Positions 5,548 to 32,050 of a stretch of DNA of 34,318 bases are shown in pieces (position 1 is the first letter of the stretch; the number at the start of each line of letters is the position of its first letter). The stretch is taken from the NCBI GenBank assembly GCA_905234525.1, contig CAJOIL010000002.1:1-34318 (forward strand). The letters are read 5' to 3'. Made by a program: the position numbers and the translations under genes. The notes under the pieces were generated by a model that ran no database searches, had not been told where the DNA came from, and worked only from the letters and a program-made list of their open reading frames with translations. This DNA comes from an uncultured Lachnospiraceae bacterium. Lineage in GTDB: Bacteria; Bacillota; Clostridia; Lachnospirales; Lachnospiraceae.

Positions 5548-8500
5548 CAAACAATTCCTCCATGCCTTCCCAGTCTACATTCTTAAGGCACTTACGTAAT
5601 GCATCAATGCGCTTAGCATCTTCATCCGGAAGCTTGTATTCATCAAGGTCCTTAAGTATCATCTCAACTGCATCATAATCCATCTGCGATATTACATCCT
5701 TAAGCGCCTCATTGGCATCCTTAAGTACATCATCCGGAATCATCTCCTTGTCGCCTTCTTGAGTGTCATCATTATCAGACGGCTCATCAAGAATCCTCAT
5801 TAGCTTATGTCTGTAAGTCTCATAGTCTGTCATAAACCTCTGATGATTCTTATCGATATATTCCGTATCTGAATTATTGCCTGCATCCTCGAGGTTTTTA
5901 GCCATCTCAGACAATTCACCCGCACCTATAATCCTTGCATTAGACTTAAGTGCATGAACCTTAATGGTATACATACGAATATTCTTATCCTCGTACGCTT
6001 TGCCAATGACCTCTAAATTCTCGTCAATCATATCGTAGAACATCTTGAGCGAGAATAAATAATTAGATATTCCGCCGGAATTCTTAATTCCTTCTTCAAC
6101 ATTTATTCCATCAACATCATAGAGCCACTTCATATTATCGGGCATTGTGGTTATCTCCTGCGTAACAACTTCGCCCTCATCCTTAATCATCTTCTCCTCG
6201 CTGATATGCTTCATGATTGTACGTTCAAGAAGCTCAGTATCAACCGGCTTCTCAAGATAACCGTTAAAGCCCTTAGACACATAGTATTCTTCGCCCATTG
6301 TTGAATTGGCAGTAAGCGCATATACCGGAAGGTCGGGTGCGAATACCCTTACTCGCTCTAATGTCTCTACACCATCAAGTCCGGGCATCATATGGTCTAA
6401 AAGCACCACATCGAACTTTGTATCCTTAATCTTATCAATGGCCTCTTCGCCGCTTGCGGCGGTTGTCACAAACACCTTCGTCGCCTGCAATAATCCCTTA
6501 ATAACCGTAAGGTTCATAGGATTATCATCAACTACAAGTATGTCTGCATCAGGTGCAATAAACTTAGGCACATAACCCTTCTCAGCGCTCTCGTCTGTCT
6601 CTATAAATATTCCTATAGGCTTATCGTCAACAATCTTCTGCGTTACGGTAAGGATAAATTCACTACCCTCACCATAGACACTCTCACAGGTCAAGTCGCC
6701 TCCCATAAGAAGCGCAAGTCTCTTGGAAATGTCAAGTCCGAGACCTGTTCCCTGAATCTCAGAATTCTTCACCTCATCAAGTCTCTCATATGCAGTAAAG
6801 AGCTTATCAACCTCACCTTCCTTAACACCAATTCCCGTATCCTTAACGCTGATACGAAGGTCTATCATATCACCCGTCTTATTCGGGGATGTTACGTACA
6901 ATGAGAAGCCACCAATCTCTGTATATTTAACCGCGTTAGATAACAGATTAAGAACTATCTGCTTAATCTTGGAAATGTCACCGTACATCTTAGTAGGCAA
7001 TTTCTCATCAACAACAATATCAAATGTAAGTCCCTTATCTACACTTCTTTGTCTAATCATTGCCGAAACAGAGCGAAGCATTTCTCGAATATCGTATTCT
7101 TGCTCTACGAGATTCATCCTTCCCTCTTCAATCTTAGACATATCAAGTAAGTCATTAATAAGACTAAGAAGTGATTCCGAAGCATTATTAATATGATGAG
7201 AGTTGCTCATTACCTGACGATAATATGGCTTCGGAACATCTGTTGCATTTTCTCGAAGTGTCATCTCGTTCATACCCATTATCGTATTGATAGGTGTACG
7301 AATCTCGTGCGACATGTTGGCAAGGAATTTCGACTTCGCGGAATTAGCTCTCTCCGCTTCTTCCTTAGCCTTGCGAATCTCTTCATATTGCTGTCTGATT
7401 GTAGTAGATGTAATAACTCTCCATACAATTACGCCTGCTGCAATGACAAGCAATAATACAAATATTATTCTGATTATAAGTATTTCTCCGATTCTTGCAG
7501 TCTTATTAACCTGGTATACATCATCAGACAAAACACTTGCCGTAGCATTATCAAGAACCTGTATATGAAGCTTATAATTACCGTACGGCATATCCGTATA
7601 TTCCAATGGTGTCAGATCACTTCGAAGAACAGTAATACCATCATCCGGTCCGTCTTCAAGATATACATGCACAAGAGGGTCGCGCATAGTGTAATCCATA
7701 ACGGAAGCATTTATTCTGATACGCCCCTTTGATGCAGGTATGGTAAATGTTCCGTCAGAATTCACTTCTATTCTCTCATCATCACAATATATCGAGCTTA
7801 TACCTGTCTTAATTCTCTCATCCAGCTTGTAATAATTATTGATATTAACCTTAATTACGCCTGCCCTTCCCGGTATATAGAGATTACCTTCATTGTCTCG
7901 TCCGCTGAACGAATTACTTGTAATCTCGTAAGGCAGTCCGTTATCCAATGTATAGCAATAATAATCCGTAACCTTATCATCAAGCATTGCCTTCGTGTCT
8001 ACATTATATATACCTGCAGACGACAGTATCCATGCACTGCCGGTATTATCAAAATACATATCATAATTATTACTGTATGGGAATGTGGTTACGCCGGTGA
8101 CCAATTCATCCTTAAAATATTGTATAGAATTAGAGGTAATAAGCCAATACACTCCGTTAGCCGTATCCTTAACTATTCTTAATATAACATCACTGGATAA
8201 TCCCTGCTCACGACCAAGGCGTGTTACACTATCACCTTCAATTATATATAAACCATCACCGTCAGAACCGGCATATACTCTTCCGCCGTCTCCCTCTACA
8301 ACAGTCAAAAAAACGGTATTCTTAACACCCTGGTCTGTACCAACATTTCTTATAACCGCGCCATCCTTAATTACACTCAGACCGCCGTTCGTTCCGATAA
8401 GCATACTACCGTCACTTGCTTGTGTGATAGTTCTGACCTTGTTATGACTAAGTCCTGTCTCCTTGGTAAATGCTGTAACTCTGCCGTCAGGCGACATACA

Positions 8501-29485: not shown

Positions 29486-30052
29486 ATGGAAAAACCATCA
29501 GTCAAAAAGAAAAAACGTTGGTCACCAAAAGTGCAAACTCTTACGTATGTTGCGCTATCAACCGCAATCACCTGTATAATCGGACCACTGTCTATTGTGA
29601 TACCGATTAGCCCCGTGCCGATTTCGCTTACAATCCTTGCCATATACATATCAGTTTATGCAATAGGATTAAAACGAAGCTTGGCGTCATTATTTTTATA
29701 CTTTCTGATAGGATTTGTCGGTCTTCCCGTTTTTTCAAATTTTAAAGGCGGATTCCAGGTATTAATCGGTCCGACAGGCGGATACATAATCGGATTTATA
29801 TTCGTTGTTATTTGTACGGGAATATTTATCGAACGATTCGAAAGCAAAGTATATATGCATGTAATCGGAATGATACTCGGAACAATTCTTTGTTATATCG
29901 CCGGAACGGCCTGGCTCGCATACCAGGGCAACATGACATTTCTCGAAGCACTGTTCGCGGGAGTTATTCCGTTCATATGGGCAGATGCAATTAAAATTAT
30001 TATAGCGGCTATCGTTGGTCCAAAGCTTAGACGTGCACTTAAAAAAATATAG
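29486..30052 (+). CDS. bioY: Biotin transporter BioY (ECF S component)
   Basis: ISPVPISLTILAIYISVYAIG; GPTGGYIIGF; GTAWLAY. Confidence 0.93.
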   Translation: MEKPSVKKKKRWSPKVQTLTYVALSTAITCIIGPLSIVIPISPVPISLTILAIYISVYAIGLKRSLASLFLYFLIGFVGLPVFSNFKGGFQVLIGPTGGYIIGFIFVVICTGIFIERFESKVYMHVIGMILGTILCYIAGTAWLAYQGNMTFLEALFAGVIPFIWADAIKIIIAAIVGPKLRRALKKI

Positions 30053-30081
30053 CGTGACAGAAAAACTCCCTATCACGCTAT
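30041..30081 (-). terminator. Que operon intrinsic terminator; T-tract lies antisense within the bioY 3' end
   Basis: Minus: ATAGCGTGA...TCACGCTAT perfect 9-bp stem then ATTTTTTT. Confidence 0.75.
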
Positions 30082-30092
30082 CCTCTTTAAAA

Positions 30093-30122
30093 TGTGTCAC
30101 CGGACACGTCCCCCCTGACACA
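30093..30122. repeat. REP-like hairpin TGTGTCAGGGGGGACGTGTCCGGTGACACA abutting the queF stop
   Basis: 7-bp outer stem TGTGTCA/TGACACA with G-rich GGGGGGACG core. Confidence 0.75.
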
Positions 30123-30614
30123 CTATCTGTTATCTACTACTTCCGGATTCATGTCATGATGCGACAATCTCTCCCATGCAAGCTCTTCCCATTTAGTACC
30201 GGACATGCCGTAATTGCAATACGGATCGATTGAGATTCCACCTCTCGGAAGGAATCTACCGAGCACTTCGATATATTTAGGTTCCATCAGCTTGATTAAA
30301 TCCTTCATTATTGTATTAACACAATCCTCGTGAAAATCACCCTTGTTCCTATAAGATAATAAATACAGCTTAAGACTTTTGCTCTCTACCATTCGTTCAT
30401 TCGGCACATAGGAAATCGTAATTGTTGCAAAGTCAGGCTGACCCGTAATAGGACATAACGATGTGAATTCCGGACAATTGAATTTAACAAAATAATCATT
30501 ATCCTTATGCTTATTCTCAAATGTCTCTAATATATCAGGATTATATTCATTGTCATACTTGACTCCCTTGTTGCCAAGTAATGTAAGCTCTTCTCTGTCT
30601 CTCATAATATGCAA
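30123..30614 (-). CDS. queF: PreQ1 synthase (NADPH-dependent 7-cyano-7-deazaguanine reductase)
   Basis: [42 protein letters not shown]. Confidence 0.97.
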
Positions 30615-30621
30615 TCCTCAC

Positions 30622-30702
30622 CGCGACAGGGGGACGGGTTCCTTGTCGCGCTTTTCTTTAGATAGTACTATTCTCGCGACAAGGAACCCGTCCCCCTGTC
30701 GC
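30622..30702. repeat. Paired inverted REP-like element (BIME-like) 1, overlapping the 3' end of queC
   Basis: CGCGACAGGGGGACGGGTTCCTTGTCGCG (30622-30650), 24-nt spacer, 28-bp exact inverted copy (30675-30702). Confidence 0.95.
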
Positions 30703-31374
30703 AGGATCTGTGACACCGTTAAGCTCGAACGCTTTCGCTCTATCGATACATGTGCCGCATTTACCACAAGGCTTGTCGCCGCCCTCATAACACGACCAAG
30801 TCAGTTCATAGGGTACACCAAGTTCAAGTCCTCTCCCCACAACATCAGCCTTGTTCATATTAACAAACGGTGCTTCTATCTTAACCTGATGACCGCTTCC
30901 TTCATAAATGGCGGTATTCATTGCATTATTAAATACATCTGAACAATCCGGATAAGCGAACCCTGCGGCATCATCTGAATGCACACCGTAGTAAATCACT
31001 TCACAACCCTTACTGATTGCAATTCCCGCAGCTATCGACAAGAATATTCCGTTACGAAACGGCACATAAGTACTTACAGGCGTTTCACCGCCGGTCTTTT
31101 TTATCTGCTCATCATAGCTTTCCTTGGGGATAGTGTCATCTGAATGCTTTAATAATGAACTATTGCTATACTTGAATATATTAGATATGTCTGTCTCAAT
31201 GTGCTTAACATCATAATGCTTTGCAACTGCCCTCGCAGACTCTAATTCCTTCGTGTGCGTCTGACCGTATGTTATCGATAATGATATTACATTATCATGT
31301 CCGTTTAATCGGACAGCTTCTGCAAGTGCTGTGGTTGAATCTATTCCTCCACTGGATAATACAAGTACTTTCAT
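30658..31374 (-). CDS. queC: 7-cyano-7-deazaguanine synthase; C-terminal residues encoded by the REP-like repeat
   Basis: VLSSGGIDSTTAL; SITYGQTH; VPFRNGIFLSIAAGIA; CYEGGDKPCGKCGTCIDRAKAF. Confidence 0.97.
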   Translation of the reverse strand: MKVLVLSSGGIDSTTALAEAVRLNGHDNVISLSITYGQTHTKELESARAVAKHYDVKHIETDISNIFKYSNSSLLKHSDDTIPKESYDEQIKKTGGETPVSTYVPFRNGIFLSIAAGIAISKGCEVIYYGVHSDDAAGFAYPDCSDVFNNAMNTAIYEGSGHQVKIEAPFVNMNKADVVGRGLELGVPYELTWSCYEGGDKPCGKCGTCIDRAKAFELNGVTDPATGGRVPCRENSTI

Positions 31375-31387
31375 TGACGCCTCTCAA

Positions 31388-31470
31388 GCGCGACAGGGGG
31401 ACGGGTCCCTTGTCGCGCACGAGTTAATTACCACAATTCCCGCGACAAGGAACCCGTCCCCCTGTCGCGC
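31388..31470. repeat. Paired inverted REP-like element (BIME-like) 2, between folE and queC
   Basis: CGCGACAGGGGGACGGGTCCCTTGTCGCG (31389-31417), 23-nt spacer, inverted copy (31441-31469) identical to element 1's arm. Confidence 0.95.
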
Positions 31471-31471
31471 T

Positions 31472-32050
31472 TTACCTCACATATATCTGCAGTGACGGGT
31501 CTGTCTTGAATTCGCCCCTTAGCTCTGCTGTAAATGTCTTAGTGTTATTCTTCTTAATCCCCCTGGCATTAACGCAGCTGTGACAGCCTTCGATTGTTAC
31601 CGCTACATTATCCGTATCAACTATCTCGCTGATTATATCAGCTATATCCTTGCCGATTCGCTCTTGCAATTGAAGACGACGAGCCGCCATATCACACACT
31701 CTCGCAATCTTAGATAAGCCGATCACTTTGCCATTGGGAATATACGCAACATTAACCTTCATATCATACATAAGCGCAAGATGGTGCTCACAATACGAGA
31801 ATATATCAATATTACGCATCACAATAACACGTCCAATCATGTTATCCGTAACATCTTCCAGTGATTCTTCAAATGTCTTATTGAACATCTCAGCAATCTC
31901 ATGATTGGTATAATTCATACCTTCAAACACTTCTTCATACATCTTGGCCACTCTTGCCGGAGTATCAACAAGCCCTTCACGAGTAGGGTCGTCACCTATT
32001 GCTTCGATTATTCCTCTGATATGTTCTTCAATTGCCTTTGTATCTATCAT
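31472..32050 (-). CDS. folE: GTP cyclohydrolase I
   Basis: [59 protein letters not shown]. Confidence 0.97.

Follow-up and report, generated by a model that had tools for sequence, protein, structure and literature searches.

A REPIN at the 3' end of queC

We analyzed a 34,318-nucleotide stretch of DNA (the window) from the draft genome (G000) of an uncultured Lachnospiraceae bacterium. On its minus strand lies an operon with the order queE (32717-32064), folE (32050-31472), queC (31374-30658), and queF (about 30606-30123). The features around queC are as follows:

31472..32050, minus strand: folE (GTP cyclohydrolase I; PF01227), C terminus unaltered, with the LQ[IV]YVR end shared by congeners
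31386..31472, strand not assigned: second REPIN (inverted repeat), in the folE-queC gap, just after the folE stop codon
30658..31374, minus strand: queC (7-cyano-7-deazaguanine synthase), 238 codons plus TAA
30661..30702, minus strand: predicted REPIN-encoded QueC tail ATGGRVPCRENSTI, by direct reading; in no orthologue read
30675..30702, minus strand: REP arm read as queC sequence (inverted repeat, 100% complementary)
30658..30660, minus strand: queC stop codon TAA, supplied by the REPIN spacer (direct reading)
30623..30650, plus strand: second REP arm (inverted repeat partner), directly upstream of the queF ribosome-binding region
30123..30606, minus strand: queF, start inferred from MRDREE..., common to orthologues
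30090..30120, strand not assigned: single REP variant with GTGTCA stem ends, just after queF (direct reading, pattern listing)

QueC matches PF06508 in a profile search (E 8e-61; match end at residue 218) and is above the cut-off for TIGR00364. Its Cys-rich zinc motif is present, with C195, C203, C206, and C209 invariant among 25 aligned orthologues. The C terminus predicted by direct reading is ...KAFELNGVTDP-ATGGRVPCRENSTI-stop. Nine codons within the arm (30676-30702) specify ATGGRVPCR, and the last five (ENSTI) derive from a junction base and the spacer. The codons, GCG ACA GGG GGA CGG GTT CCT TGT CGC GAG AAT AGT ACT ATC TAA, are exactly those given in the original prediction, which correctly had the queC frame run through one repeat arm and stop in the spacer. 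That prediction placed a REP-like repeat at 30658-30710, a range that starts at the stop codon and covers one arm, whereas the whole element occupies 30623-30702 and is better described as a REPIN, in which two REPs in inverted orientation move together. Its arms (27-28 nt) are 100% complementary over 28 nt and lie 24 nt apart.

In congeners only 2-5 nt separate the folE stop from the queC start, whereas here the second REPIN lies between them. Rfam gave zero matches in 30000-31600, and a terminator scan found a terminator-like match from the REPIN only on the strand opposite queC. The variant after queF belongs to a related repeat (GTGTCA...GGGGACGTGTCC) that we saw as single copies in the window and at L061:5421, L073:7059, and L060:5390.

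C termini of QueC orthologues

Among congeners QueC ends NGVKDPAL (G005, 77% identical), NGITDPAL, NGIEDPAV, NGIPDPAIQ, NGLPDPAIQ, or NGVVDLLADD, each followed by a stop codon, and most same-genus proteins end DPAL, DPAV, or DPAIQ and then stop. More distant orthologues likewise end near NGxxDPA; for close relatives the original prediction had expected an end near NGVxDP. We read 76 of 80 loci from named genomes (L124, L134, L140, and L141 were missed by the tail-reading pattern), and in these QueC ended no more than about 12 residues from the DP position, usually within five. Some named genomes overlap with the congener set; in total more than 80 distinct orthologues were covered. None has a GGRVPCRE-like tail, and none shows an equivalent tail where the repeat is lacking, the case that would have counted against the original prediction. 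In an alignment of 25 sequences the extra C-terminal columns were unique to the window QueC, apart from one misplaced end residue. Tails in Selenomonas, which tblastn matched to query residue 238, were considered as common tails and rejected; the DNA has a stop after DPAIG, and the match is an alignment overrun. Because in a few repeat-free orthologues up to 12 residues follow DP, almost as many as in the window QueC, the origin of the window tail is proved by its sequence and not by its length.

Comparison of the region between queC and queF with G005 located the junction. In G005, GACCCT is followed by GCACTTTAATTGAAAGGATTTTATAATG, which contains the queF start. In the window the REPIN comes after GATCCT, extending from GCGACAGG to CTGTCGC, with GGTGAGGATTGCATATTATG beyond it. 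The flanks therefore meet at about the last residue and stop codon of the orthologue. The original prediction had the insertion remove the old stop. The insertion at the end of queC is supported; as for the stop, a few bases at the queC junction were lost or have diverged, which is compatible both with deletion of the stop and with its being pushed downstream.

The repeat family and a RAYT-like gene

A pattern search found 77 exact copies of the core GGGGGACGGGTYCC in the genome, and a slightly looser arm pattern (up to one mismatch) gave 86 matches; the reversed pattern, used as a control, gave 0 copies, so the resemblance at queC is not a chance one. There were 0 copies of the 13-nt core in seven congeners, in keeping with the proposal that the tail is unique to the genome that carries the repeat, and among 249 further genomes taken from the family it occurred in two, in one and four copies. 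These copy numbers, with the lack of any such tail in more than 80 orthologues, support the claim that the last 14 or so residues of QueC are repeat-derived.

We surveyed the stretches fetched round the repeats (44 clusters) in the draft assembly (134 contigs), using simple ORF calls. There were 32 inverted arm pairs, with a commonest spacer of 26 nt. The arms are almost invariant and the spacers vary, some of them, including that of the queC copy, being clearly related. The queC spacer resembles those of other copies (for example, L055:13272 and L062:1575), and therefore the arm pair moved as a unit. No fixed target tag was seen beside the arms, where the flanking bases vary. The distances between paired arms (L054-L082) are concentrated at the modal value and, relative to it, at roughly -11, +10 to +12, and +20 to +21 bp, near whole helical turns, in a set of only 32 pairs of which some are related by descent.

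A tyrosine-transposase gene at G000:C60 has REPIN clusters on both sides. Its product is over the PF01797 cut-off and has HVH and YILQNP motifs; HVH and YxxxNP are motifs of TnpA-REP class 2 (PMC6006769). Against the REP-associated transposase model NF047646 it scored 49.9 bits (E 2.9e-13), below the cut-off of 80, and its C-terminal extension gave only weak helix-turn-helix matches (E about 0.1). Judged by these sequence features, we class the repeats as REPINs with a RAYT-like gene, whose product probably moves them.

The repeats resemble known REPINs/RAYTs and REPtrons in being short imperfect palindromes in inverted pairs, with tens of copies, mostly extragenic and near gene 3' ends, and with a Y1 transposase gene flanked by copies. 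They differ in that the flanking bases vary, so that there is no fixed GTAG tag, and in that the RAYT-like protein falls under the NCBIfam cut-off. The fixed terminal GTAG tetranucleotide of the GTAG REP superfamily is absent from these repeats, as is the terminal unpaired CGTC of the CGTC superfamily, CGTC occurring only mid-arm. TIRYT/TnpA-REP subclass 2.1 (PMC3733652, PMC6006769) shares the YxxxNP motif. The protein here also has a C-terminal extension, which matches helix-turn-helix models only weakly, and the repeats have a GGGGAC core near the published GGGGWSAS motif; compared by motif, however, the core GGGGACGG departs from GGGGWSAS at position 7.

Origin of the QueC tail

The tail is best explained, and very probably arose, by insertion of a REPIN at the last codon or codons of queC with loss or displacement of the old stop. 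The element, of about 80-82 bp (two inverted REP arms and a spacer of about 24 nt), would presumably have been mobilized by the RAYT-like tyrosine transposase, whose gene lies at another site in the genome, and the original end, probably A-L-stop or similar, would have been lost or displaced. Since all six frames of the arm lack stop codons, the queC frame would have stayed open through it until closed by the spacer TAA, leaving 14 residues beyond NGVTDP, roughly 12 more than congeners have. Six other ORFs of the genome, described below, also end inside REPINs, in line with such an origin. By the same token, any insertion of the element just before a stop codon would extend the protein to a stop in the spacer or beyond. 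We rejected the idea that being open in six frames is an adaptation: when the arm was shuffled with its composition preserved, 36% of the shuffles were equally open, as against 3% of random 27-mers at the window G+C, and so high G+C largely explains it.

An AlphaFold model (25 orthologues) has a confident QueC core (mean pLDDT 86.5), with residues 231-238 below 50. The enzyme keeps its catalytic and zinc-binding parts intact, and disorder is predicted for the tail; QueC is therefore most likely still functional. Its tail, if translated as the reading frame predicts, would most likely be a tolerated by-product that is probably neutral.

It is possible, though we think it unlikely, that the main effect of the insertion is on the operon and not on the protein, a reading that is compatible with REPIN insertion. 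The pair folds as a hairpin of about 32 bp (-67.9 kcal/mol, z -12.4) whose loop holds the queC stop; the second arm, at the hairpin foot, abuts the queF ribosome-binding region; and the operon has a further REPIN after folE and a REP variant after queF. Because the stop lies in the loop, ribosomes translating queC would open the hairpin, and they could plausibly keep queF translation or transcription going. This argument, however, is drawn entirely from sequence, and the stop-in-loop arrangement is not a fixed design, because many other REPINs in the genome have the gene stop ahead of the arm.

Selection of the tail itself, with REP-encoded peptides tagging QueC and similar proteins or extending them for regulation, is very improbable. 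Including queC, seven ORFs in the genome have REP-encoded ends; the other six, which also end inside REPINs, encode a P-type ATPase, a SpoU-family methylase (trmL-like), an IF-2B-family protein, WhiA, a GNAT acetyltransferase, and Nth. Comparison with congeners shows that nth, whiA, the P-type ATPase gene, and the SpoU-family gene natively end differently and that their tails come from the repeat; the IF-2B-family and GNAT cases rest on Pfam and on simple ORF calls round the repeats. Nth ends ...C-ATGGRVPCREKCPD, the C being its last cluster cysteine, and its tail and that of QueC have ATGGRVPCRE in common. But the seven tails are spread over all three frames, and because of this their sequences are unlike (ATGGRVPCR, RQGDGFLV, DRGTGSLS); the host proteins are unrelated, and the QueC tail is predicted to be disordered. 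The use of all three frames suggests that the tails are tolerated by-products rather than selected sequences.

We give equally little weight to an assembly artefact in which reads from different loci were joined at queC. The genome is a draft in 134 contigs, copies of its repeat differ very little from one another, some contigs break off near REPs, and repeated hairpins can cause misassembly. The flanks, however, are queC and queF, whose order is conserved in congeners; the queC spacer differs from those of other copies; and the element (about 82 bp) is shorter than ordinary reads. An ancestral tail that came to resemble the repeat by convergence is the least credible alternative, for although a few orthologues have longer ends (for example, ...DPAIRMRRKGECKE and ...DPATEYWRSRTNEK), these are unlike GGRVPCRE, and convergence is refuted by copy number, being impossible given the identity of the whole arm to dozens of other copies.

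Precedents and other genes with REPs inside them

REP-encoded C termini and in-frame REPs are known from other phyla (Di Nocera et al. 2013, PMC3733652), and GTAG repeats are able to supply stop codons (PMC3733652). The intragenic GTAG/CGTC REPs described there likewise place REP-encoded residues within proteins; they belong to another repeat family and another bacterial group, and in queC it is the spacer that supplies the stop. Rickettsia palindromic elements, the classic in-frame case, also lie in frame in unrelated genes but are larger (about 150 bp; PMC10969869), and the insertions seen here are mostly between genes. A literature search of partial coverage found no report of the queC repeat family in Lachnospiraceae. 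The QueC tail is a well-supported fresh instance of an already known event, in other bacteria and with another repeat. Less ordinary are the density of cases in a single genome and a replacement within WhiA.

In whiA (L060:6689-7402, minus strand), an in-frame REPIN at 7267-7348 stands where some 70-90 codons, most of the N-terminal domain, would be expected, and the REP tail at the C terminus comes from a second REPIN. The WhiA_N domain (PF10298) was found nowhere else in the genome, and the N-terminal loss is either a real deletion or an assembly collapse between the two REPINs. In-frame REPINs also lie inside MurT (L069:4780-6243, minus strand) and an AEC-family transporter (L067:1063-2082, plus strand), both confirmed by comparison with congeners. 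Events of this known kind are unusually frequent in this one Lachnospiraceae-related draft genome. That a recently expanded, six-frame-open REPIN acts as a general protein remodeler, re-ending seven proteins, inserting in frame in others, and replacing most of the WhiA N-terminal domain while the genes remain functional, is a broader proposition that we regard as doubtful.

QueC provides a clean comparison, with and without a mobile palindrome, of how such an element rewrites a protein end, and it has many siblings in one genome, and tests of whether such tails are translated, tolerated, or harmful thereby become possible. For annotation, REP-derived C termini such as ATGGRVPCR or DRGTGSLSR should not be taken for conserved protein sequence. 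Two further genes seem to bear the repeat in frame: a TrmK-like methyltransferase gene (L065:1042-1845, plus strand), a simple ORF call assigned by Pfam, and a glycosyltransferase-like gene (L060:14968-16626, minus strand), with two REPINs.
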